IMG/VR virus record: IMGVR_UViG_3300034198_000840 | Coordinates: 1 to 26,445 of that record | Strand: one strand, 5' to 3' | Origin: a virus | DNA length: 26,445 nt | Shown: positions 12,306 through 25,791 of the stretch, piece by piece | Position numbering within the stretch: the stretch's first letter is position 1 | How the letters are laid out: each line of letters begins with the position of its first letter | Translations under genes and position numbers: made by a program | Notes under the pieces: model-generated | The model's input: the letters and a program-made list of their open reading frames with translations, nothing else | The model's database searches: none | Told to the model about the DNA's origin: nothing

Positions 12306-12920
12306 ATGGCAGCTGGCGATACTGGTATTCGTATTTGTGCTGATGCGCTCCTAATGATTGGAGCCAAGGCAATTACATCATTTAATGATGGTACTGACGA
12401 GAGCTCGATCTGTGATCGACTCTATCCAAATATTAGGGACAGTACATTAGTCATGTATCCATGGTCATTCAACATGAAAAAGATCCAGCTGGCTCAGCTG
12501 GTGACTGCACCTGGTAGCGTTTGGAAGTATGCATACCAGTTGCCTGGTGACCGCATTGCTGGTCCTAGAGCCGTATATAACTCGGCATCCGTTGGCGCTC
12601 CAGTGCAAAAAGATTGGGAGATCCAGGGCGATCAAATGCTGACAAATCTGACCAGCGTTTATATTGACTATCAATATAGCGTTGCAGAATATGCAATGCC
12701 ACAATACTTTGTGCAACTGTTGAAATACATGGTTGCCTGGCATGTAGCAGAATCAATTACCGAGCAACAAGAAAAGTCTACTAAGTGGCGTAATGTTGCG
12801 CTGGGTGATCCATCTGAGAATGGCCGAGGTGGTTATTTTAGGCAGTGCATGCAGGTAGATGGCCAGAGTAACCCAATAAGAATCATTGAGGATTTCAGCT
12901 TAATTGCAGTGAGGAACTAA
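12306..12920 (+). CDS. Tail tubular protein A (gp11-like adaptor)
   Basis: A 204-residue protein with helical N-terminus ICADALLMIGAKAITSF, a conserved MYPWSFNMKKIQLAQL segment, a middle with YQLPGDRI and the WHVAESITEQQ helix; these are the hallmarks of T7 gp11-type adaptor proteins. In T7-like phages twelve copies sit below the portal and bind the nozzle. AAAGG precedes the ATG with 6-base spacing. The C-terminus overlaps the next gene. It lies in the canonical position after the capsid pair. Confidence 0.87.
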   Translation: MAAGDTGIRICADALLMIGAKAITSFNDGTDESSICDRLYPNIRDSTLVMYPWSFNMKKIQLAQLVTAPGSVWKYAYQLPGDRIAGPRAVYNSASVGAPVQKDWEIQGDQMLTNLTSVYIDYQYSVAEYAMPQYFVQLLKYMVAWHVAESITEQQEKSTKWRNVALGDPSENGRGGYFRQCMQVDGQSNPIRIIEDFSLIAVRN

Positions 12921-14905
12921 TGCCACGCTTTGTTGACATTCAGTCTAACTTTAGTACAGGCGAATTGGATCCTTTGCTGCGATCCAGGATAGAGCTCGAT
13001 CAATACAATAACGCACTAGCTAAAGCCACTAATGTGCTAATCCAGCCACAAGGCGGGTTAAGGCGTAGACCAGGCACCAAGCATATCTTGGAGCTCCCTA
13101 ATAGCAGCACACCGAGTGCCGGCAATGGCGTGCGTTTGGTGCCATTCCAGTTTTCAGTTACTGATAGCTATATGCTGTGCTTTACGCACCAGCGCATGTA
13201 CGTTATTAAAAATGGCGCTGTGATAACTGCTATTAATGCTGGTGCCAATAATTACCTGACCACTAGCATTACATCAGATATGGTTGATGATATGTGCTGG
13301 ACGCAATCCGCAGATACATTGATTGTGGTCCATCCAGATCTGCAGCCAGTAAAGATTGTGCGCGGTGCTACTGATGCTAGCTGGACAGCCACAACAATTA
13401 CGTTTGATAGCATACCGAAGTATGCATTCACTATTACTTATACAAACCCGGCTGGCACGCTTACTCCAAGCGCTGTATCTGGGAACATCACGTTGACTGC
13501 ATCATCTGGAGTATTTAGCGCAGGTGACGTTAATCAATACATTAATGCAACGCCACAAGGAAGAGCAAAGATTATTCAATATGTTAGCTCAACTGTTGTG
13601 AACGTAATTACTGAATATCCATTCTTTAATACAACAGCTATTGCTAATGGTAATTGGGAAAAAGAAAGTGGTTATGAGGATGTGTGGTCAAGCACTAAAG
13701 GCTGGCCAAGATCTGTAAGTTTCCACGAAGGCAGATTATATTTTGGTGGTTCTAAGTCTAGACCATCAACAATATGGGGAAGCAAGATTGGTTTGTTTTT
13801 TGATTTTGTTCCAACAGAATCTCTTGATGATGACTCAGTTGAAGCCACGCTAGATACTAACGAACTTAACGTAATTACTGATATTTTAAGTGCCAGAGAT
13901 TTCCAGGTATTTAGCACTGGTGGTGAATTCTATGTGCCGCAAAATGCTACTGATCCAATAACTCCATTGACGTTTATTTTTAAAAACGTATCAAGAAATG
14001 GTGTTAAGCCTGGAACTAGGGTGCAGTCTGTTGATACTGGTACTGTATACATTCAGCGCCAAGGTAAATCATTAAACGAGTTTGTGTTCTCTGATTCTCA
14101 ACTGACATATATCACGCAACGTATCTCATTAATGTCTGGTCATTTGCTGAAGTCTCCACAGCGCATTGCATTACGTAGAGCATCCAGCACAGAAGAAGCT
14201 GATTTGCTTTTGATGACAAATGATACCGATGGAAGTATGGCTGCGTTTTCAATCATGAGATCTCAGCAGATTACAGCGCCATCTGAGTTTACTACTGACG
14301 GTAGTTTTATTGATGTTGGTGTTGATATTACGTCCATATATACAGTTACAAAAAGAAGGTTTAATTTAGTCGATAGATATTTTGTCGAGTTATTTAGTTA
14401 CGATGTCTTTACAGATTGCTCTTTTACTGGTGGTGCTGCTGCTAGTGCTACAGGCTTACCACATATTGGTAAGGCTCTTAATGTAATTACTGATGGCATA
14501 CCTCAATCAAATGAAACTGTAAGCGGTGGTGGTTCAGTTACTTTTGATAGATCAAGCACAACCAGCTATGAAGTTGGTTTGCCAATGACCGTCTACATTA
14601 AAACAATGCCGGTAGACATTAAGTTGCAAACTGGTACTAGGTTATCTTTTAAAAAGCGCATTGTAGAAATCAGTGCTGTTTTAAAAGATACGCAACATAT
14701 GATTATTAATTCTCAGCCGATAGCATTTAGGTTATTTGATAATCCAATGCTTGATGCTGCCGAGCCTACATATACAGGCATTAAAAGGGTTAATGGTGTA
14801 CTTGGATATAGCCGAGAACAAGCAATTGAGGTATCTCAAAACCTGCCACTAAAAATGACATTGCTTGGTCTTGATTACCGAGTCGCAGTAAATTCAGGAA
14901 CTTGA
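12920..14905 (+). CDS. Tail tubular protein B (gp12-like nozzle)
   Basis: A 661-residue nozzle protein, typically a beta-rich hexamer at the tail tip. The N-terminus shows the family signature FSTGELDPLLRSR, then NVLIQPQGGLRRRPGTKH. The region around residues 260-330 has the repeated WP(R/K)SVSFHEGRLYFGG and SKSRPSTIWGSKIG motifs of a beta-propeller-like domain; further beta strands follow. Length fits gp12-type proteins. GAGGAA lies upstream, and the ATG overlaps the stop of the adaptor gene, so the two tail-tube proteins are co-translated. Confidence 0.88.
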   Translation: MPRFVDIQSNFSTGELDPLLRSRIELDQYNNALAKATNVLIQPQGGLRRRPGTKHILELPNSSTPSAGNGVRLVPFQFSVTDSYMLCFTHQRMYVIKNGAVITAINAGANNYLTTSITSDMVDDMCWTQSADTLIVVHPDLQPVKIVRGATDASWTATTITFDSIPKYAFTITYTNPAGTLTPSAVSGNITLTASSGVFSAGDVNQYINATPQGRAKIIQYVSSTVVNVITEYPFFNTTAIANGNWEKESGYEDVWSSTKGWPRSVSFHEGRLYFGGSKSRPSTIWGSKIGLFFDFVPTESLDDDSVEATLDTNELNVITDILSARDFQVFSTGGEFYVPQNATDPITPLTFIFKNVSRNGVKPGTRVQSVDTGTVYIQRQGKSLNEFVFSDSQLTYITQRISLMSGHLLKSPQRIALRRASSTEEADLLLMTNDTDGSMAAFSIMRSQQITAPSEFTTDGSFIDVGVDITSIYTVTKRRFNLVDRYFVELFSYDVFTDCSFTGGAAASATGLPHIGKALNVITDGIPQSNETVSGGGSVTFDRSSTTSYEVGLPMTVYIKTMPVDIKLQTGTRLSFKKRIVEISAVLKDTQHMIINSQPIAFRLFDNPMLDAAEPTYTGIKRVNGVLGYSREQAIEVSQNLPLKMTLLGLDYRVAVNSGT

Positions 14906-14906
14906 T

Positions 14907-15542
14907 ATGGCAATGACTCCAGGAATGTTAACTGCTGGTGCTGGCCTGATAACAGCGTATGGCGCTAGTCAGGCTAGACAAGCAGAGGCAATTAGCCAAC
15001 AAACTAGTTTTCTTTTGCAAGCCAGAAATTCGCTTGAGGTTGCTAATGTTCGCGCAGATCTTGATGCTGAGTATGGAGCTATCCAGGCTGGACGTCTTTT
15101 GCAAAAAGCAAAGACAGAGGAAATGAATTGGAAGATAGCTGGCAATACATTGTTGCGTAGAGAGCGTGAATCAAATGCTGCTGTGCGTGCTAGAGCTGCA
15201 GCTAATGGTATTGATTATGGCGGTGGAAGTGCGCTTGCTATTCAGCAACAAAACACAAGAGCAACAATGATGGATGTTGGTGTTGCAGATTTGAATGCAT
15301 TAGCTGCAAGGGTATTAGGATTTGAGGATGCCAGTGCAATGCTTGAATCTACTGCTGTTCAAAATATACTTAATAAGTATTCTGCTACAGCACAAGCTGG
15401 CCAATACGAACAGGCAGCAGCTGCATCTAAACGCACTGGTGGATTGATGAGCAATTATACGCTTGGCTCTGCTGCTATTAATTTTGGCACTACTGTTTAT
15501 GGCGAAACAGCTCCTAAAGCTGCACCACCAAAAACTAAATAA
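14907..15542 (+). CDS. Internal virion protein B (gp14-like)
   Basis: A 211-residue Ala/Gln-rich helical protein with hydrophobic N-terminus (GMLTAGAGLITAYGASQ), a long helix with ATMMDVGVADLNALAARVL and a Pro/Lys-rich tail. In T7 the corresponding gp14 is an ejected core protein that helps form a channel across the outer membrane. A GGGSALAIQQQN motif follows the RAAANGIDYGG turn, as in related proteins from memory. It starts one base after the nozzle stop, at the expected slot before the larger internal proteins. Confidence 0.78.
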   Translation: MAMTPGMLTAGAGLITAYGASQARQAEAISQQTSFLLQARNSLEVANVRADLDAEYGAIQAGRLLQKAKTEEMNWKIAGNTLLRRERESNAAVRARAAANGIDYGGGSALAIQQQNTRATMMDVGVADLNALAARVLGFEDASAMLESTAVQNILNKYSATAQAGQYEQAAAASKRTGGLMSNYTLGSAAINFGTTVYGETAPKAAPPKTK

Positions 15543-15553
15543 GGTAATTGAAT

Positions 15554-17329
15554 ATGGCCACTAGATTAGATCCGGGAAATATACAGCTACGTCAACCTGG
15601 CGGTGTTCCTATGCGTCAGGTAGAGCCTCGGCCTGTGCAGTATTTTGCTGGTCGCGTTGAAGCTGAATCTGGCCATGTTATGGCTCAAATCCTAGATAGA
15701 ATGAGCTCTGGATTATTTGAGTATGCAGGTAAATTACGCGCAGAAGAAGGTCTTAAATACGCAGCAGAAAACCCAATTACTCAAGAACAGTTAATTGATT
15801 CGCAGGGTGGCATAGATTTAAATATTGGTGGTGGAGTAAGCATTAAAGATGGCAAGGTGCAAAAAAATGCAGCAAGCATTTTGCCAAGTAAGTTTAATGA
15901 AGCAGTAATGAAAGCCAGAAGTGCTCAACTATCAAACTTGTTTGAGCAGCAAGGCACTGCTGAGCTAGTAAAAATGTTGGATGATATTCAGCAGGGTAAT
16001 CCTACTGCATCATCTAAAAATATAATTGAAAAAATAAATACGTTTACTAAAGCAAATAGTGAAGTGCTGGCAGAAATAGATCCAGCTGCAGCTATTCGTT
16101 TTAATGCAACCATGGCAGCTCATGGTAACTCTGTTTATAGGTCAGCGTTAGAAGCGGAATCAAAATTTAATAAGCGCGTAAGAGAAACAGAATTCGACTC
16201 TTTTTATAATAATGAAATAACATTATTGCAAAACCATGCAAAAAACAATCCTGCAGAGTTAGCAATAATTGGTGAAGCATCATTAGGTAGATTAAGACAG
16301 GCTGCTTTTACAAAAGGCATTGGCCTTGAAATGTCAAATAAGTACATCAATGATTTTCAAAAAGATTTTCGTGATGCGCAAATAAATGTAATCAAACAAG
16401 AATTACGTAAAGAAGATTACATGCGTGATGTTGCAAAAACAAGATCAGACATTCTTGCCGGCAATCTTGGCAAACTTAGTCCTGTATTGCAAAATTTACA
16501 GTTAGACTCAAAAGCTATTGAAGATATAAACAAGGAATTTAATACTCTTGTTTCTTATCGTAGACAAGATCAGCAAGATAAAGATAAAGAGCAAAAAGAT
16601 GCGGATCATAAAACAGCAAACAATATGCTGTTGACATATCATGATCCTAAAACATCTGCTCAACAAAAACGTCAAATAGCTGTTGAGTTAACAAAGATGG
16701 GTGTTTTATCTATTGAGCAGATTGAGCATTTTTTAAAACCAGAAACTAAAGAAGGTGATCCATATGCATATGCAGATTTGGAATCACGAATTGTATTTGG
16801 CGATATTACAGATGTTAACCAGCTAAAAAAAGCAGCTCAGCGTACTGGTATGAGTGGCACTCAGTTTGCCAGGTTAAACAGCCGTTTATTAGATGGCGTT
16901 AAAAAAGATGATACTGATGCTAGACGTTTGATTCGCAGATTTGCTGGAACTCCAGATGTTGTTAGTTCATTTGCCACAAAAGATGATGAGGCAAAAATTA
17001 ATAAAGAATTAACTATTGTTTCTTATTACGAAAACAATATTAAAGAGTTTAGGAAAACTAGTCCTGGAATTGAGATTCCATATAATCAATTGGCATTAAT
17101 GGCCAAAGAAAAATACGAGCAAATTGATAAAGCTGATGTAACAAAGAATGCTGCTAGAAAATCAATTGAAGGAATAACTTCAGATCTTATTCAGTCTAAA
17201 AGATTACCTACTGGTACAGTTATTGATGAATCAACAAATATTGATGATTTAAAAACAAAATATAAATTAAAAGATGCTGATGTTGATATCTTGAAAAAGA
17301 AACAAAACATACTAAAAGGTATTAAATAA
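15554..17329 (+). CDS. Internal virion protein C-like (gp15-region), 591 aa
   Basis: A 591-residue, mostly alpha-helical protein rich in Lys, Asp, Gln and Asn. The ATG at 15554 is used because AAGG at 15541-15544 is about nine bases upstream; a TTG at 15548 is less likely. The N-terminal segment (GNIQLRQPGGVPMRQ) is Pro/Gly-rich, followed by helices to the end; a charged linker (about residues 335-352) separates two halves. No catalytic motif is seen. The slot between gp14-like and a larger internal protein suggests an ejected core protein. The gene is A-rich, unlike the neighbouring nozzle. Confidence 0.68.
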   Translation: MATRLDPGNIQLRQPGGVPMRQVEPRPVQYFAGRVEAESGHVMAQILDRMSSGLFEYAGKLRAEEGLKYAAENPITQEQLIDSQGGIDLNIGGGVSIKDGKVQKNAASILPSKFNEAVMKARSAQLSNLFEQQGTAELVKMLDDIQQGNPTASSKNIIEKINTFTKANSEVLAEIDPAAAIRFNATMAAHGNSVYRSALEAESKFNKRVRETEFDSFYNNEITLLQNHAKNNPAELAIIGEASLGRLRQAAFTKGIGLEMSNKYINDFQKDFRDAQINVIKQELRKEDYMRDVAKTRSDILAGNLGKLSPVLQNLQLDSKAIEDINKEFNTLVSYRRQDQQDKDKEQKDADHKTANNMLLTYHDPKTSAQQKRQIAVELTKMGVLSIEQIEHFLKPETKEGDPYAYADLESRIVFGDITDVNQLKKAAQRTGMSGTQFARLNSRLLDGVKKDDTDARRLIRRFAGTPDVVSSFATKDDEAKINKELTIVSYYENNIKEFRKTSPGIEIPYNQLALMAKEKYEQIDKADVTKNAARKSIEGITSDLIQSKRLPTGTVIDESTNIDDLKTKYKLKDADVDILKKKQNILKGIK

Positions 17330-19347
17330 TGGCTTACTCAAAATTAGAGGATGCAATCGTCAATCATTACCTTGATGTTAACTATCTGCCTATAGATCAA
17401 GAAGAGCCAAGCCTGGAAGGTATGCAGTTGGCTGCTGGCCCATCATCAACAATGACTGATGCCGGCCCACGTTTTGGGCGTGGTGGTGTTACTAAGCAGC
17501 AATCTGCTGCAGCCGGTGGTTTGGAGAAACCATTAACTGGATTAGCAGATTTGTTTGCTGGATTTGCGCGTGGTGCCACAGCTCAGACTCTTGGTCTAGG
17601 TGGAGATCTTGAGCAGCTCTACAATGGTTTTGCATCTGTATTTAATCGCCCAGAAGATCAAGGAAGAATCGATGCTTTTCTAAAAGGCGTAGAGCAAAAA
17701 ACAAAGATGGCCACTACTGAGCAAGTAAAGAAAGAAGGATTCAGAATTCCTGGTACAGATATTAATGTACCTGCTTTGCCACCAACAATACCAGCTGGAG
17801 TTGCTGACCAAAAGAGTAGACAGGCAACCGCTAATGTTGGAGAAACATTTGGCGAGTTTGCTCCTCTACCTGGAGCTATAGAAGCTGGAACTGCTGGATT
17901 AAAGTATGGATTGCAAGCAACTAAAGGAATGCCTATTGGCATGAGCATAAAAAATGTTGGCCCTGATATTATTAGTACCAGGCTACCTACAGCCGTAAAA
18001 GCTACTGAGAATCCATTAGATCAAAACTTAATAATTGATCTTGATTCTGCGAAAAGAGATCCTGAAGCATTTAAACATAATATGAGTTTGGTGCAGCAGT
18101 ATCCAAACTTTAAATCTAAATCAAGAACTCCAGATAAACAAGCAGATGATTTTATTAATGAAGTTAAAAACAATCTGCTTTATCTTTATGACAAAGTGCC
18201 AGAAGATACTAGAGCAAGAAGCATGCTTTGGTATGACGGTGCTAGAAATATAGTTGATCGTTGGGGTAAAGAATATAACCAGCCAGACCAGGCATTAGCT
18301 GGTGTGCTTGCGGTTTTATCTCCGCAAAAGGATTGGTTTATGAATGTATCTCTTGGCCAGCGCGTGTTAGATGTTATGACGCAAAAGCAAGGATACAAGT
18401 GGGATGATGCAATGAGCCAGAAGGCTACAGAAATTTGGGCTAAAGAAAAATATGCTCCAATGCTTGAGGCCATTAAAGGAAAAACACTTCAAGAAATTGA
18501 TGATCCTGGTTTAAAGGCAATGTGGCTGCGCACCTATGATCAGGCACATATACCACGTGAACATCAGATAGTTACTCCAGAGGGAGACTTTGCTGGTGTG
18601 CGTTTGACAGATAAAGGTGTGCCATACAAAACAGGTTGGGGCTCATTAAATGAAATAGGTAAAGCAGTAGTTATTTTGCAAGATCCAAGCAAAGCAAATA
18701 TTAGTGCTAATCTTGGTGGCCAGCATAAAGTGCGTAGTTTTTACAGCAACATTTATGCACCATATGATCCATCTGGTAATGTCACAATTGATACTCATGC
18801 TGTTGCTGCCGGTTTGTTAAGACCGTTATCAGGCAATAGTAGAGAGGTATTACATAATTTTGGATCTGGCGTTAAAGGAGAAGGTGGCCCTGCTAATAGT
18901 TCAGTTACTGGCGTACAAGGTACCTATGGTTTATATGCTGAAGCATACCGACGAGCTGCAGAGGAACGTGGCGTATTGCCAAGACAAATGCAATCAATTA
19001 CTTGGGAGGCAGTAAGAGGTCTATTCCCAGATACATTTAAAACTGCAAAAAATTCTGAAGCCATTGACAATATCTGGTTACAATATCGGAAGGGAAAACT
19101 CTCATTAGACGAGGCAAGAAATGAAGTCTTTACAGCCGCAGGTGGAATCAATCCCCCAGAGTGGGAGCGAGCCGGATTACGTTCTCAATCTCCTCAAGAA
19201 ATTCAACCTGCCAATAACCAGGGAGAATTATCTGGGTCTAGCATACCCAGAGGGAGCTCCAGCGGATCTGGACGAGTCAAGCCTACCAAAGGAAATAGCA
19301 CAAGCATAATTGGGGGAAGTCAGTCTCCAATACCAGGAGCTGAATAA
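17329..19347 (+). CDS. Virion protein with HhH-glycosylase-like signature, 672 aa
   Basis: A 672-residue protein between gp15-like and gp16-like genes, with a flexible, Gly/Pro/Ala-rich first third. A conserved domain lies at about residues 295-520: ARNIVDRWGKEY, then GVLAVLSPQKDWFMN at 325-339, a long helical stretch, and then GGQHKVRSFYSNI and VTIDTHAVAAGLL (K467, D488). The Lys plus IDTH with about 20 residues between them resembles the HhH-GPD DNA glycosylase motif (Lys in the hairpin, Asp in VDTH). Similar segments recur in uncharacterised large phage and polyvalent-type proteins (from memory). The final 70 residues are Ser/Gly/Pro-rich and disordered. Whether it is enzymatic is unknown. 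Confidence 0.6.
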   Translation: MAYSKLEDAIVNHYLDVNYLPIDQEEPSLEGMQLAAGPSSTMTDAGPRFGRGGVTKQQSAAAGGLEKPLTGLADLFAGFARGATAQTLGLGGDLEQLYNGFASVFNRPEDQGRIDAFLKGVEQKTKMATTEQVKKEGFRIPGTDINVPALPPTIPAGVADQKSRQATANVGETFGEFAPLPGAIEAGTAGLKYGLQATKGMPIGMSIKNVGPDIISTRLPTAVKATENPLDQNLIIDLDSAKRDPEAFKHNMSLVQQYPNFKSKSRTPDKQADDFINEVKNNLLYLYDKVPEDTRARSMLWYDGARNIVDRWGKEYNQPDQALAGVLAVLSPQKDWFMNVSLGQRVLDVMTQKQGYKWDDAMSQKATEIWAKEKYAPMLEAIKGKTLQEIDDPGLKAMWLRTYDQAHIPREHQIVTPEGDFAGVRLTDKGVPYKTGWGSLNEIGKAVVILQDPSKANISANLGGQHKVRSFYSNIYAPYDPSGNVTIDTHAVAAGLLRPLSGNSREVLHNFGSGVKGEGGPANSSVTGVQGTYGLYAEAYRRAAEERGVLPRQMQSITWEAVRGLFPDTFKTAKNSEAIDNIWLQYRKGKLSLDEARNEVFTAAGGINPPEWERAGLRSQSPQEIQPANNQGELSGSSIPRGSSSGSGRVKPTKGNSTSIIGGSQSPIPGAE

Positions 19348-22300
19348 TGACACTTAAAGCATCCCTTGAAAACCGCTTGGATCTAATGCTGGGTGAGACT
19401 GCACCAGATAGTGTTGTGCCAGGCATTGAGCCGACAGATGTTGGTAATAATGAAACCATTCAGGTTGCTGGCCCCATAAATGCAATAACTGAAATGCTTA
19501 CCAAGGGTGGTAAAGCATACAAAGCTGGGCAAGATGCAAGAGCTGCCAAAGCGCTTAACTCTGCTAGTCCATCAATACCTAATGCTACGCCTCCTGGCGT
19601 TGTTGGTGCTCCACCAGTAGCGCCTATTCCTGCTGCTGCTCCTGTTGCTAAGCCAAAGGTTAAAGCGCAGCCAAAGACTGCAACCGAGCTCCAGCAATTG
19701 CCTGGCCAGCTTGAGAACATCGAGCAAACATTAACGGCTGCACCACCGGTACCAGGCACAGCTGTGCCAAAACCGTTGGTTAATATTGACCGTATTGATG
19801 GCCCAGAAGATTTTAAGCAGGTGGTTGATTCTCTGGCTCAATCAAGTGGCGTGCGAGTAGAAAAGGTTACCTTTGAAGAGCTGATTGCTGATGCTAAAGC
19901 TAAAGGTTTTAGCCGAGATGTATTGGCAGATCTTGAGTCAATGAAGCAGCAATATGCTGAGATGCCTACTGATGTTGTTAGGTCTAGGCTTGCTCTTGCT
20001 AAGAATGCTAAAGACTTTGAGCAGCTGGCAATTGATGCCTATACCAAAGGATTAACACCAGAGAATCAAGCGCAATTGCTTAGATCTTTGAGTATCCATA
20101 ATTCCATATTAGATACCTATATTGGTATGCGTACAGCTGGAGCCCAGGCTACCGCAGCCGGCAGGATTGATGTTAGTCCGGCCATGGCTCAAGATATCCT
20201 TAACGGTAAAAACGTAAAGATACCTGGCGTTAATGATGCTGAGATGAAAGCAATGCTTGCTGATCCTCAGATACCTGAAAACCTAAAGATACTTGTGGAT
20301 AAGTTTGTCACGCTAAGTGATGACGCAGCCAAAGAAGGATTGATTAACAAGGTATCTAAGTGGGGCATCATTCCAGATCTATGGGACAGAACATATAAGA
20401 ATGGACTGTTATCCGCATTAGGTACACACATAACTAACCTATCCAGTAACGTGACGTTTCTTGCCAGCTCTGTCGCTACAAGAGCAGCTGCTGAGGGTAT
20501 AGGTACAGCAAAAGGAGCTATTGGTTTAACAGCTGATATTGAGTTGGGAGAATCTGCAGCTATGCTGGCCGGCATTGTGCATTCTTTTAGAGAAGGTTTT
20601 GGATTAAGTTGGGAAGCATTAAAGACAGGCACTACCAGGGAAATGCGCGAAGGCATGGATATCATGAGCGATGCCGGCAAAAAACTGGAAGGACAGAATC
20701 AAATATTTGATGCTAGAAACTATGGGTTTGAGAATGAAACTTTAGTAAAAGGCATTAATGCTTATGCTAATTTTGTAACTCTGCTTGGTGGCCGGCCAAT
20801 TATGGCCATGGATGAGATGTTCAAAACCATGGGTTACAGAGCAGAGCTATATGCACAAGCATTTAGATCTAGTCAGCAAGCTAAAAAAGCTGCAATAGAA
20901 GGTGGTAAGACAGCTGATGAGGCAGATAAAATTGGCCTGGCAAAGATGGGTGAAATTCTTGGCGATCCTCCAAAAGAAATAGATGAGGCAGCTACTGATT
21001 TTTCTCAGATGATTACGTTTAGTCGTAAGCTAACTGGCGGTTCTGCTCAGTTTCAAAAGCTGGCACAGGATCATTTAATTGGCCGCATCATTATGCCATT
21101 CGTTAAAACTCCTGTATGGGTTGCATCAGAATCTATGCAGCATAGTCCATTTGCATTTGCATCTAAACAATGGCAATCAGATGTTCTTGCTGGTGGTGCT
21201 AAGCGTGAACTAGCCATAGCAAAGATGGGTATCGGCAGCATGATTATGATTGGTGCCGGCAGCTACGTTGCTGATGGCAGGATCACAGGCGGTGGCCCGG
21301 GCAATACAAATCTGAGAAATGAATACCTGGCCAGTGGCTGGAAGCCTTATTCATTTGTATTCCAAAATGGCGAATGGGATCAGGAATTTGTTAGCGATTT
21401 AAAGGCAATGCGTATTGATCCATCAATTGGACAAGATGGTAAATTATATGTTCCATTCAGAGGCATTGAGCCTATTGGTGGGCCATTGGCCATGGTTGCT
21501 GATGCCGTTGAATATGCCAGGTATGAAGATGACGAGGACGCATCTGCGCAGGTTTTGTTGGGTGCTGGCTGGGGACTGTACAACTACGTTGGCCAGATGC
21601 CATTCTTGCAGGGTATCAGTGCATTGGCTGGGTCATTCTCTCAAAGCATACCTAATCCAAAGGCTGCATTTAAAAGTGCCATTGATGGTATAGCATCAGG
21701 TGCTGCGCAGTATGCTGTGGAAGGATCTCCGGTAGGAATATTCTCAAGCTCTAGAGCTATGATTGAGCGTGGGTTTGATCCTGATAAACGCAATACATCA
21801 GCATCACCTAGCCTGGATACTGGCATCAAAGGTTTCTATGAGGGCCTTAATAAGTCTATAGCAAGAACTCCTATTCTTAGCGAGGATCTGCCACAGCAAT
21901 ATGACTATCTTGGCGAGAAAATGAATGATGTTGATCCATCATCCCCATGGTTAGCCGGCATGAGTGGTGTGCGTTTTAGCGAAAGCAAGCAGCGTCCAGC
22001 AGATAAAGTAATTATTAATCTAGGGATACCGCTTAAAAAGCCTGACATAAACCTGAGAGCTGGTGGCGTTAGCATAAAGCTGGAGCCTGAAGAGTATGAA
22101 TTTATGATGAAGAGACTTGGCACTATTACAGACAGTAATGGCAACAGGTTAAAAGATGCAATATGGGCAACATACATTAGCCCAGGTTTTGTTGACAATG
22201 ATCTGAACGTAAAGCAGGACAACATAAAAGATGTGTATGAGAGCTTTACCAAAGCAGCTCAGAATGAATTGTTAATGAATAGTAAATTCTCTGGCGCTAT

Positions 22301-22361
22301 TGAACAGCGAATTGAGCGTGCTCAAAACCGCTTGCCTCGCCTTGGTAATTATGCAAAATAG
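19347..22361 (+). CDS. Large internal virion protein D-like (gp16-region), 1004 aa
   Basis: The longest gene, 1004 residues; AGGAG is seven bases before the ATG. It has an N-terminal Pro/Ala-rich linker (about residues 75-115), then helical regions. A central hydrophobic and helical part (about 350-480) contains NGLLSALGTHITNLSSN, and a further segment has MPFVKTPVWVASESMQ. This pattern is common in large internal or polyvalent phage proteins. A lytic transglycosylase motif was looked for and not seen, so the T7 gp16 enzyme may be absent. Its last position before the fibres matches the gp16 slot. It would be ejected with DNA. Confidence 0.68.
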   Translation: MTLKASLENRLDLMLGETAPDSVVPGIEPTDVGNNETIQVAGPINAITEMLTKGGKAYKAGQDARAAKALNSASPSIPNATPPGVVGAPPVAPIPAAAPVAKPKVKAQPKTATELQQLPGQLENIEQTLTAAPPVPGTAVPKPLVNIDRIDGPEDFKQVVDSLAQSSGVRVEKVTFEELIADAKAKGFSRDVLADLESMKQQYAEMPTDVVRSRLALAKNAKDFEQLAIDAYTKGLTPENQAQLLRSLSIHNSILDTYIGMRTAGAQATAAGRIDVSPAMAQDILNGKNVKIPGVNDAEMKAMLADPQIPENLKILVDKFVTLSDDAAKEGLINKVSKWGIIPDLWDRTYKNGLLSALGTHITNLSSNVTFLASSVATRAAAEGIGTAKGAIGLTADIELGESAAMLAGIVHSFREGFGLSWEALKTGTTREMREGMDIMSDAGKKLEGQNQIFDARNYGFENETLVKGINAYANFVTLLGGRPIMAMDEMFKTMGYRAELYAQAFRSSQQAKKAAIEGGKTADEADKIGLAKMGEILGDPPKEIDEAATDFSQMITFSRKLTGGSAQFQKLAQDHLIGRIIMPFVKTPVWVASESMQHSPFAFASKQWQSDVLAGGAKRELAIAKMGIGSMIMIGAGSYVADGRITGGGPGNTNLRNEYLASGWKPYSFVFQNGEWDQEFVSDLKAMRIDPSIGQDGKLYVPFRGIEPIGGPLAMVADAVEYARYEDDEDASAQVLLGAGWGLYNYVGQMPFLQGISALAGSFSQSIPNPKAAFKSAIDGIASGAAQYAVEGSPVGIFSSSRAMIERGFDPDKRNTSASPSLDTGIKGFYEGLNKSIARTPILSEDLPQQYDYLGEKMNDVDPSSPWLAGMSGVRFSESKQRPADKVIINLGIPLKKPDINLRAGGVSIKLEPEEYEFMMKRLGTITDSNGNRLKDAIWATYISPGFVDNDLNVKQDNIKDVYESFTKAAQNELLMNSKFSGAIEQRIERAQNRLPRLGNYAK

Positions 22362-22388
22362 CAATAATTTTTATAGGAAGGGTTGACC

Positions 22389-23828
22389 ATGGGAGTACCC
22401 ATATCCAATGTGACCAGGCGTGTAGTTTATGCGGCTAGTGGAACTGGCCCATATAACTTTACGTTTGAGATCCTGACCGCTACGGATATCGCTGTCTATC
22501 GCGATAACACGTTGCTCACCCTAACTACAAACTACACCGTTACTATCAATAGTAATGGCACTGGTTTTGTTACGCTGACTGCTACACCTACTGGTGCAAC
22601 TCAGATTGCTATCGTTGGCAACCGAAGCATTCAGCGCACCACAGACTTTGTTACTGGCGGTGACTTCTTTGCCAACACAGTTAATGATGAGCTAGACCAG
22701 CAAACAATCTTTGCTCAGCAAAATGCTGAAGGTTTGCAGCGTGCGCTCCAGGCACCACAGACAGATCCAACATCTATCAACATGACATTACCTGGCAAGG
22801 CATCAAGAGCCGGTAAGTATCTTGCGTTTGATGTGGATGGTAATCCTACTCCTGGTCCAACTTCCACTGCTGTTGATGTTGTAGCGAACATTGCTGCTGA
22901 TGTTACTACTGTTGCTGGCATCAGCACCAAGGTAACTACAGTTGCTGGACAGTCGGCACAGATTAATACTCTGGCTCCTATATCAGCAAACATTACTACT
23001 GTTGCAAATATTGCTCCTAGCGTAGTAACTGTGGCCTCATTAAACTCTGCACAGCTAACAGCGCTTGCTGGTGCCACTGCCAATATGGCGGTGCTTGCTC
23101 CCATTGCTACACAGATTACAAATGTATCAAGCATTAGCACCCAGGTTGTACAGGTTGCTGCGCTTAGTTCTACAAACTTAAATGCTGTTGCTGGACAGAC
23201 TGCAAACATTGCCGCGCTTGGCGCTATCAGCCCACAGATAACTACAGTAGCAAGTCAGTCTACACAGATTAGCACAGTGGCAGGTCAGTCTACCCAGATT
23301 GGATTGCTGGCATTACGCACTGCTGACTTAGCTGCGCTTGGCCCTATTAGTGCTGACATTACCACCGTATCTGCAAACATTGGTGCAGTACAAAGCGCAA
23401 GTACAAACGCATTAACTGCTCAGTCTGCGGCTACATCTGCAAGCATTAGCGCACTATCTGCATCATCTAGTGCAACATCTGCCAGCGCATCTGCTACTGC
23501 TGCGGCTGCAAACTACGATAGTTTTGATGATCGATATCTTGGAGCTAAGTCTAGCGCACCATCTGTAGACAATGATGGCAATGCATTGCTAACAGGTGCG
23601 CTGTATTGGAACTCTACATCTAATCTACTTTTTATCTGGACAGGATCTAGTTGGGACCAGGCTGCATTTTCTGTTAGCGGTGCAGTCACAAGTTTTAATA
23701 CGCGAACAGGTGCAGTTACATTAAGCAGCACTGACGTTACAAATGCACTTACTTTTACACCGGCAACTGCCGCCTCTGTTTCTGCCATCCCAGATCCTGT
23801 TGCGATGGCCTTGGTTTTTGGGAGTTAA
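22389..23828 (+). CDS. Tail fibre with T7-type N-terminal domain, 479 aa
   Basis: The ATG at 22389 is preceded by AGGAAGGG; a TTG at 22383 is less likely. The first 110 residues carry the Phage_T7_tail (PF03906) attachment domain, with YNFTFEILTATDIAVYRDN and VGNRSIQRTTDF. Sixteen decapeptide-like repeats follow (residues 167-329), then a Ser/Ala-rich stretch, then DDRYLGAKSSAPSVDNDG and a WTGSSW segment, and a SFNTRTGAVTLSS motif; these are widespread in phage fibres. The C-terminus ends early, without an enzyme or chaperone domain. It joins the tail through the N-terminus and carries further receptor-binding proteins. Confidence 0.85.
   Translation: MGVPISNVTRRVVYAASGTGPYNFTFEILTATDIAVYRDNTLLTLTTNYTVTINSNGTGFVTLTATPTGATQIAIVGNRSIQRTTDFVTGGDFFANTVNDELDQQTIFAQQNAEGLQRALQAPQTDPTSINMTLPGKASRAGKYLAFDVDGNPTPGPTSTAVDVVANIAADVTTVAGISTKVTTVAGQSAQINTLAPISANITTVANIAPSVVTVASLNSAQLTALAGATANMAVLAPIATQITNVSSISTQVVQVAALSSTNLNAVAGQTANIAALGAISPQITTVASQSTQISTVAGQSTQIGLLALRTADLAALGPISADITTVSANIGAVQSASTNALTAQSAATSASISALSASSSATSASASATAAAANYDSFDDRYLGAKSSAPSVDNDGNALLTGALYWNSTSNLLFIWTGSSWDQAAFSVSGAVTSFNTRTGAVTLSSTDVTNALTFTPATAASVSAIPDPVAMALVFGS
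22887..23375 (+). repeat. 16-unit decapeptide repeat in the fibre shaft
   Basis: Consensus about I-S-x-x-I-T-T-V-A-G, 10 residues with three 11-residue variants. The units run contiguously in frame over 489 bases (163 codons, residues 167-329). Hydrophobic positions 1, 5 and 8 are kept while codons vary, so the repeat is protein-level and old rather than a recent DNA duplication. It probably forms a trimeric shaft. Confidence 0.8.
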
Positions 23829-23830
23829 TC

Positions 23831-24886
23831 ATGGCATTAAAAGGCAAGCCAATTGCGATTGGCACAAGCGATACCACAATCTATACCTGCCCATCTACAC
23901 TTGAAGCATCAGTGCATGGCCTGGTGTTTGCAAACAATACTGGCAGTGCTGTAACTATTACTCTGAAAATTTATATACAGAGTTTAGGCACAACTACTAC
24001 TGTGGCTACTGGCATATCTGTTGGAGCTAACACTACCTACACTTGGCCAAAACCAATTAATGTAAATGCTGGTGACTACATACAAGCTGCTGCATCTACT
24101 GGCTCAGCACTTGTCTGCTTCTATTCTGTGTATGAAGGATCGGCTGCTGCAGCTGCAGTTGGATTCACTCCGCGAGGTGCGTGGGGATCAGGTTCAACGT
24201 ATGCAGTTAATGATGTTGTTAGTTTAAGTGGCTCAAGTTACTTGGCTATTCAAGCAAGCACCAATCAAAACCCAGCAACACAAACTGCTTACTGGTTAGT
24301 GTTAGCAGCCAAAGGTGATACAGGCTCTGGTGACGTATCTGGCCCATCTGCTTCTGTTGATTCTGAGTTGGCATTGTTTAACAGCACAACAGGCAAGTTA
24401 ATTAAACGTGCGTCACTAACTGGTTTGGTTAAGGCTACATCAGGTGTTGCGTCTGCCGCTACGGCTGGTACAGACTACGTTGCACCTAGTGGTGCATTGG
24501 GTACACCATCATCAGGCACATTAACAAACTGTACTGCTGATGGCACTGATGCAGTTGGGTTTAGAAATGTACCTATTAGCAGCAAATCCGCTGCATACAC
24601 AACGGTGCTGGCAGACTCTGGAAAAGTTATATTCCACCCATCAACAGATGCAAACGCACGAACATTCACTATTGATAGTAATGCTAACGTAGCGTATCCA
24701 TTGGGTACTGTGCTGACGTTTATTAACATGACTAGCCAAGCTGTAACGATTGCAATCACAAGTGACACAATGTATTTGGCTGGAACAGGTACTACTGGAA
24801 GTAGAACATTAGCGCTGTATGGTATGGCAACTGCAATTAAGATGACTTCTACAACGTGGCTCATTTCAGGATCGGGGTTAACCTAA
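23831..24886 (+). CDS. Fibre-type receptor-binding protein with carbohydrate-binding module, 351 aa
   Basis: GGGAG is six bases before the ATG. The N-terminal 110 residues form a beta-rich domain (ATGISVGANTTYTWPKPINV) common in phage tail proteins. Around residues 113-155 is a CBM5/12 or ChiC-like segment (RGAWGSGSTYAVNDVVSLSG, then a NPATQTAYWLVL strand) with aromatic residues that would contact sugar. Next come the fibre motifs GDVSGPSASVDSELALF and LGTPSSGTLTNCT, then a C-terminal beta domain. It is consistent with surface polysaccharide binding. The stop overlaps the next ATG, as in a co-translated receptor-binding cassette. Confidence 0.72.
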   Translation: MALKGKPIAIGTSDTTIYTCPSTLEASVHGLVFANNTGSAVTITLKIYIQSLGTTTTVATGISVGANTTYTWPKPINVNAGDYIQAAASTGSALVCFYSVYEGSAAAAAVGFTPRGAWGSGSTYAVNDVVSLSGSSYLAIQASTNQNPATQTAYWLVLAAKGDTGSGDVSGPSASVDSELALFNSTTGKLIKRASLTGLVKATSGVASAATAGTDYVAPSGALGTPSSGTLTNCTADGTDAVGFRNVPISSKSAAYTTVLADSGKVIFHPSTDANARTFTIDSNANVAYPLGTVLTFINMTSQAVTIAITSDTMYLAGTGTTGSRTLALYGMATAIKMTSTTWLISGSGLT

Positions 24887-25791
24887 TGAGTGGAGTTTTA
24901 AATTTATTGTTAAGTAGAGGCGGCGCTGCTGCCCCATCATCAGTAAGTTATCTTGTTGTTGCTGGCGGCGGCTCTGGAGGCGGAGGCGTTAGTGGCGTTG
25001 GCGGCGCGGGTGGCGGAGGCGCGGGTGGATATAGAGAGTCAACATTATCTGTTTCAGCGGGATCAAATTACACTGTAACTATTGGCGGTGGTGGGCCGCA
25101 ACATGAAGGCGGCACTTCTGGTACTAATGGTTCTGATTCTGTATTTGGTTCTATTACTTCTACTGGCGGTGGTCGAGGAGGTAGTGCCACTTCTGTAACT
25201 GCGACTGCTGGCTCATCTGGCGGCTCCGGCGGCGGGGGTCAGCCAACTGGTGGAACCGGCGCGGCTGGGGGTTCTGGAACGTCAGGCCAAGGAAATGCCG
25301 GCGGATCAGGCAACCCATCAGGCCCGAATTATGGCGGCGGCGGGGGCGGGGGCTCTGCTGCTGTTGGCGATAATGGTACGACTTTGCTTGGCGGTAACGG
25401 TGGTAGCGGCTCAAGCTCATCAATTTCAGGCTCAAGCACAGGCTACGCTGGCGGCGGCGGTGCGGCTGTTTACGATACAACGGCTGGCGGTACTCCTGGT
25501 TCTGGCGGTTTTGGAGGCGGCGGCGCTGGAACTACGGCAACAGGCGCAACTGGCTTATATGGCGTAGCGGGATCCGTAAATACTGGAGGCGGCGGCGGAG
25601 CTGGCGGCACTAAAGACAACTCAAACCAAGCTGGCGGCGGTGCTGGGGGTAGCGGTATTGTGATTATCAGTTATCCATCTACTTATGCTAATTTAGCGTC
25701 AATTGGTGGTGGTTTAACTTATACAAAAACTACGTCAGGTGGCAATACCATCTATAAGTTTACTGCTGGTACTGGCAATATTTCATGGTGA
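24886..25791 (+). CDS. Glycine-rich tail adhesin, 301 aa
   Basis: ATG at 24886, overlapping the previous TAA; upstream in-frame starts are ignored because the junction is coupled. After about 22 residues the sequence reads YLVVAGGGSGGGG and continues with many GGG runs to about residue 255, ending GGSGIVIISYPS. Such glycine-rich phage proteins can fold as polyglycine-II helix bundles, as in the adhesin gp38 of Salmonella phage S16. Variable loops between Gly runs would bind the host. The C-terminal 45 residues (GGLTYTKTTSGGNTIYKF) form a conserved beta tail. The gene is unusually GGC-rich. Confidence 0.75.
   Translation: MSGVLNLLLSRGGAAAPSSVSYLVVAGGGSGGGGVSGVGGAGGGGAGGYRESTLSVSAGSNYTVTIGGGGPQHEGGTSGTNGSDSVFGSITSTGGGRGGSATSVTATAGSSGGSGGGGQPTGGTGAAGGSGTSGQGNAGGSGNPSGPNYGGGGGGGSAAVGDNGTTLLGGNGGSGSSSSISGSSTGYAGGGGAAVYDTTAGGTPGSGGFGGGGAGTTATGATGLYGVAGSVNTGGGGGAGGTKDNSNQAGGGAGGSGIVIISYPSTYANLASIGGGLTYTKTTSGGNTIYKFTAGTGNISW

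Follow-up and report, generated by a model that had tools for sequence, protein, structure and literature searches.

A predicted OGG-like helix-hairpin-helix domain of the DUF7178 family in a putative ejection protein of a T7-organised podovirus

Why a gene in the virion region of a podovirus should encode a protein with the motifs of a DNA glycosylase is the question raised by the IMG/VR record IMGVR_UViG_3300034198_000840, of which positions 1 to 26,445 were analysed as one stretch of 26,445 nucleotides (the window). The open reading frame (ORF) in question (17329..19347, + strand) encodes 672 amino acids, with a conserved core between a variable N-terminal region and a variable C-terminal tail. 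The original prediction stated that the protein carried a Lys and an Asp arranged as in the helix-hairpin-helix (HhH) GPD glycosylases, that it lay between two internal virion genes, and that it might be packaged and ejected with DNA. Our results pointed to an ejected, catalytic domain that acts on DNA and is related to the 8-oxoguanine DNA glycosylases (OGG). This reading, in which the protein would be packaged, ejected and enzymatically active whatever its target, was given a probability of about 0.6.

The motif GVLAVLSPQKDWFMN was located at residues 325-339 of the protein (18301..18345, + strand), and residues 325-336 read GVLAVLSPQKDW. The segment GGQHKVRSFY at residues 463-472 contained K467, and VTIDTHAVAAGLL at residues 485-497 contained D488. 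K467 and D488 were separated by 21 residues, and the LSPQKDW motif was located about 135-140 residues ahead of K467, as had been claimed. The K-(17 to 22)-D spacing alone was present in all of 20,000 shuffles of the protein and is by itself worthless as evidence; the fuller pattern, Gly-K-spacer-[VI]D[TS][HW], was found in 23 of 20,000 shuffles. The motif stands above chance because both K467 and D488 were conserved in all 54 core relatives and all 41 stand-alone relatives, and the observation of the motif is confirmed.

The core (residues 210-616; 17956..19176, + strand) matched Pfam PF23802 (DUF7178, unknown function) with an E-value of 5.4e-26, in two stretches with an insertion between them, and it also matched phrog_3842, again of unknown function. 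An NCBIfam search gave no match. Conservation was analysed in 95 sequences, comprising the 54 core relatives (<85% mutual identity, down to about 36% identity) and the 41 stand-alone DUF7178 proteins. Residues W301, Y302, S331, P332, W336, N339, K467, F471, D488 and Q555 were identical in 95 of 95, and W559 was conserved in 94. The predicted Schiff-base nucleophile was K467 (18727..18729, + strand). In the D488-T-H490 segment (18790..18798, + strand), the predicted catalytic Asp was followed at the D+2 position by His (83 sequences) or Trp (12 sequences). Q555 and W559 (18991..19005, + strand), the predicted base-pocket pair in the C-terminal helix, were always four residues apart. IMG/VR contained at least about 590 matches to the core and at least 555 to the stand-alone form. 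Some of the stand-alone relatives in actinophages were annotated already as “glycosylase” or “N-glycosylase/DNA lyase”, and the glycosylase idea is therefore not new for them; no paper on DUF7178 was found among the open-licence literature. The larger profile phrog_2878 (631 positions, unknown function) showed a weak match to the domain at its positions 120-272, and B5LJA6 of Mycobacterium phage Myrna (636 amino acids) was a structural match of the core model; this may be a further branch.

The core was modelled with AlphaFold2 from the 54-sequence alignment, at a predicted local distance difference test score (pLDDT) of 94.7. In this model, helices 455-462 and 466-476 were linked by a three-residue turn (463-465, G463-Q465), forming a helix-hairpin-helix (18691..18756, + strand). 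K467 stood at position two of the second helix, while D488 lay directly ahead of helix 489-496 and capped it. Foldseek comparison of the core model with the PDB placed Pa-AGOG at rank 1 (E 0.14, probability 0.66), with Tga-AGOG also listed, and comparison with viral models gave stand-alone phage proteins, e.g. G8EYE9 of S-CBP42, with a template modelling (TM) score of 0.78 on the target. Because the core model matched stand-alone phage proteins, the stand-alone family was modelled separately (30 sequences, pLDDT 92.7). The stand-alone model contained helices 107-113 and 117-127, with D135 ahead of helix 136-143. The modelled arrangement of helices, Lys and Asp is that of the HhH-GPD enzymes, in which the hairpin leads through a loop with Gly/Pro to the catalytic Asp where the next helix begins. 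Among the top 50 rows of the PDB matches of the stand-alone model, 48 were 8-oxoguanine DNA glycosylases (OGG1, OGG2 or AGOG), including SsOgg, MjOgg, TmOgg, Pa-AGOG and the mouse and human OGG1, with probabilities up to 0.99 and TM up to 0.58. The support for the fold lies in the consistency of these matches and in no single E-value, because the E-values were about 0.1 at best. From the models, the core very probably adopts an HhH-GPD, OGG-like fold. The claim of an HhH-GPD-like fold was thus borne out by the predicted hairpin, by the invariant K467 and D488, and by PDB matches that belonged to the HhH-GPD superfamily; neither a fold without the hairpin nor an unconserved Lys or Asp, both named beforehand among the refuting outcomes, was seen. 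The likeness had been drawn through endonuclease III; the nearest relatives were instead OGG2, OGG1 and AGOG, and the domain itself belonged to DUF7178 in Pfam. An endonuclease III-type Fe-S enzyme was ruled out, because the protein contained no Cys among its 672 residues and the C-terminal [4Fe-4S] cysteine cluster is impossible without them.

Sequence profiles led to the same group of enzymes. Two profiles of the stand-alone proteins, A3 and A4, were compared with 177,635 PDB sequences and gave few, weak matches, among which the OGG2 glycosylase/lyases were prominent. The OGG2 entries 9o00, 3n0u, 3knt and 3fhf were matched at E-values of 0.09 to 1.6, with the catalytic Asp and the C-terminal Trp each aligned with the same residue of OGG2. 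The first matches of profile A4 were de novo TIM barrels and were dismissed as repetitive artefacts. The hhalign comparison with bacterial endonuclease III-type proteins aligned the Lys and the Asp with their counterparts at a non-significant E-value of 0.11, and that with bacterial OGG gave just short matches, mostly out of register. PDB searches with the single sequence and with the core profile found nothing. A profile search of the segment had been proposed with the original prediction; the HhH-GPD and AGOG (PF09171) Pfam models did not match the protein, and the DUF7178 match was the only one reported; such a profile match would lend support to membership of the superfamily but does not define it where the fold is shared. 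A search for AGOG (PF09171) in 149 genomes found none, and the choice of phylum was uninformative.

Several points weighed against an OGG-like enzyme. Sequence comparison with known glycosylases reached significance for none of them (best E 0.09, OGG2), and in the HMMER alignment with OGG2 the catalytic Lys was shifted by one residue, with the Phe that follows it serving as the anchor. None of the Foldseek matches in the PDB had an E-value below 0.001 (best 0.09). The core of the window protein has an insertion of 70-80 residues relative to the stand-alone proteins; it spans roughly residues 360-440 (18406..18648, + strand) and includes two short predicted strands, and the distance from P332 to K467 was 127-174 residues in the cores versus 48-61 in the stand-alone proteins. 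The sequence does not reveal the substrate. Finally, the PDB matches of the core model below rank 1 were weak and mixed, e.g. trichodiene synthases, which would suit an all-helical virion domain that is unrelated to the HhH-GPD enzymes and in which the Lys-Asp motif is a coincidence. Such an origin is highly improbable, given the predominance of OGGs among the matches of the stand-alone model (48 of 50), the independent sequence profiles that also reached OGG2, and the agreement in motif order and pocket positions.

The conserved residues were then compared with the active sites of the OGG enzymes. In the HhH-GPD superfamily, the catalytic Asp is invariant in all members and the Lys in the bifunctional ones. 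Catalysis in the OGG enzymes is performed by the Lys of the HhH motif and an Asp, K249/D268 in hOGG1 and K140/D172 in Pae-AGOG (PMC9638937). The base is recognized by Gln315/Phe319 in OGG1, Asp194/Trp198 in OGG2 (MjaOGG2) and Asp218/Trp222 in AGOG. The nucleotide that is flipped out is contacted at its phosphate by a residue that is either His or Trp (His270, Trp243, His148; PMC3397491). The pairs Q555/W559 and D488/H490 of the window protein agreed with this pattern of Gln or Asp followed by Phe or Trp at +4, and of His or Trp at D+2. As read from the alignment, the conservation pattern of DUF7178 is that of the OGG active site. The domain is probably a bifunctional glycosylase and apurinic/apyrimidinic (AP) lyase, and there is good reason to expect that the predicted core is catalytically competent. 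It probably represents a divergent OGG-like branch of the HhH-GPD fold that is not placed in any one OGG subfamily. A catalytically dead fold, which would solely bind DNA within the capsid or during translocation, could draw on the sequence-independent binding of HhH motifs to the DNA backbone (PMC3397491) and on the DNA binding of T7 gp15 (PMC8954989). Such a pure scaffold is improbable because nearly all of the predicted catalytic and pocket residues were invariant across about 36-100% identity. A further explanation keeps the fold and the active-site residues and assigns them to a base-modifying or hypermodification enzyme instead of a repair glycosylase. Thymidine hypermodification pathways are encoded by phages (PMC11955845), and some stand-alone relatives were annotated as “glycosyltransferase”. 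The set of K, D, His/Trp, Gln and Trp is however that of base excision, no modification-type Pfam domain was found in the core, and none was found in the limited non-structural set scanned from related contigs (resolvase, YqaJ, Sak, a weak DUF2514 and a GH19 chitinase), which makes a modifying enzyme a rather poor candidate.

Ejection of the OGG-like protein was suggested by the genes around it, all on the + strand. Upstream, a tail tubular protein B-like gene (12920..14905; 661 amino acids; phrog_376, E 4e-116) was followed by genes at the gp14-like position (14907..15542; 211 amino acids) and the gp15-like position (15548..17329; 593 amino acids), both assigned by position and size (sizes in PMC8954989), with no convincing family match. 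Downstream were a gp16-like gene (19347..22361; 1004 amino acids), which matched the “internal virion protein” family phrog_6651 (E 1.9e-22), and a tail fibre gene (22383..23828; 481 amino acids; phrog_38058, E 4e-24). Of the two internal virion genes said to flank the ORF, the downstream one was thus supported by its PHROG match, and the upstream 593-residue gene was gp15-like by position only. The ORF shared a one-base overlap (TAATG) with each neighbour, at 17329 and 19347, which suggests translational coupling of the gp15-like, DUF7178-core and gp16-like genes. The order of tail tube B, (gp14), (gp15), DUF7178, gp16 and fibre was repeated in many contigs, with gp14 and gp15 recognized by position. 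In T7-type cassettes, gp14-gp15-gp16 are found at the corresponding place (PMC8954989). The N-terminal region (residues 1-209; 17329..17955, + strand), which lies outside the enzyme-like core, had no family match and no strong transmembrane segment, and an N-terminal ejection signature common to proteins beyond the DUF7178-core family was looked for and not found. After the tail fibre gene, a match to the carbohydrate-binding family CBM_5_12, below the threshold, and a Gly_rich_2 domain were observed (23831-24886 and 24856-25791). A longer contig with an identical copy of the protein (L389, G157:C1:17400-32795) encoded a resolvase-type recombinase, a YqaJ exonuclease and a Sak single-strand annealing protein, and a related contig (L391:14628-15284) encoded a GH19 chitinase-type domain, possibly an endolysin.

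The core was also found in long proteins of other phages, up to 5,134 amino acids. Seven of these were scanned and contained ART-PolyVal, LPD22, LPD38, PBECR5, RadC or GNAT domains in various combinations, and RNase-like domains were among the fusions. Giant ORFs of 2,700-5,100 amino acids with the core were observed at L155:870-16271 and L159:4581-16097 and in L142, L150 and L152; the scanned ones (L159, L142, L150 and L152) combined it with ADP-ribosyltransferase, RadC, GGDEF, GNAT or LPD domains. In Roseobacter phage CRP-738, the core was in gp40, one small gene past the portal gene, and in LS06-2018-MD07 it was in a giant ORF annotated as “methyltransferase”, with a hypothetical protein of 632 residues and a protein annotated as internal virion protein next to it. 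Polyvalent proteins have been proposed to enter the host alongside the DNA and to act there at entry (Iyer et al. 2017, PMC5512222); the main text of that paper makes no mention of a glycosylase domain. The window protein is likely to be ejected from the virion, because its gene sits in the gp15/gp16-like cassette and its core is fused in polyvalent proteins. Among open-licence papers, none was found to report that virion, ejection or polyvalent proteins contain an HhH-GPD glycosylase, and DUF7178 may be a module of ejection and polyvalent proteins that has so far gone unrecorded.

In the proposed mechanism, the capsid of a T7-organised podovirus would contain the protein along with the gp14/gp15/gp16-like core proteins, and the protein would exit through the tail together with the DNA. 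The core would bind DNA non-specifically through the helix-hairpin-helix and flip out a base that is oxidised or carries another modification, which W559/Q555 and H490 would hold. K467, activated by D488, would then attack C1' to release the base, and β-elimination would nick the abasic site. The likeliest target would be damaged bases of the incoming phage genome, ahead of replication, and this target was rated at slightly under an even chance. The main alternative is that the enzyme enters with the genome and acts on host or host-defence DNA, where abasic sites and nicks would aid takeover or beat defence. Action on the host at entry has been proposed for polyvalent proteins (PMC5512222), and the conflict domains to which the core was fused included ADP-ribosyltransferase and RNase-like ones. 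Discrimination between self and non-self was however without support, and the stand-alone relatives lay outside virion genes, among small hypothetical genes. Ejection proteins are present in few copies per virion, which also weighs against a host or defence target, and this alternative appeared unlikely. That a widespread OGG-like branch of DUF7178 is delivered with phage genomes as a glycosylase/AP lyase, which would either repair the incoming DNA or damage that of the host, seemed evenly balanced. DUF7178, a family of unknown function with over a thousand matches in viral contigs, gains a testable structure and active site. If the reading is true, base excision joins the activities that phages may inject with their DNA, and the question becomes whether the virion carries a base-repair enzyme or a DNA-damaging one.

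Among known enzymes, OGG2 (MjOgg 3knt/3fhf, SsOgg 3fhg, TmOgg 3n0u) resembled DUF7178 in predicted fold (TM up to 0.58), in the HhH Lys, in the Asp with His at +2 and in the Trp of the C-terminal helix; it also lacks the N-terminal A-domain of OGG1 and is close in size to the stand-alone relatives. DUF7178 differed from OGG2 in its low identity (11-13% in structural alignments), in Gln instead of Asp four residues before the Trp, and in the hairpin, and the window form differed further in the insertion of 70-80 residues and in being part of a virion-cassette protein. AGOG (Pa-AGOG 1xqp, Tga-AGOG 7ou3) gave the best PDB match of the window core and shared the catalytic Lys/Asp and the Trp pocket, whereas its Lys-Asp spacing is 32 (K140/D172) versus 21 in the window protein and its Pfam family PF09171 did not match. 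OGG1 (human/mouse and bacterial) also has, in its C-terminal helix, a Gln followed four residues on by an aromatic one, as well as the Asp-x-His/Trp, whereas DUF7178 lacks the OGG_N domain and has low identity to it. The stand-alone DUF7178/phrog_3842 phage proteins (SIO1 gp9 and the mycobacteriophage “N-glycosylase” genes) had the domain family and the invariant residues in common with the window core; they differed in their size of about 200 residues and in the absence of the insertion, and in the records viewed they were encoded outside the virion genes, with small hypothetical genes around them. The gp14/gp15/gp16 ejection cassette of T7 was similar to the window in gene order and sizes, and T7 is not known to have a fourth protein at the position of the DUF7178 gene. 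As for the polyvalent proteins of phages (Iyer et al. 2017, PMC5512222), giant multidomain proteins of this type include the core as a module beside ART-PolyVal, LPD22/38, PBECR5 and RadC, whereas the window protein has 672 residues and DUF7178 as its sole known domain.

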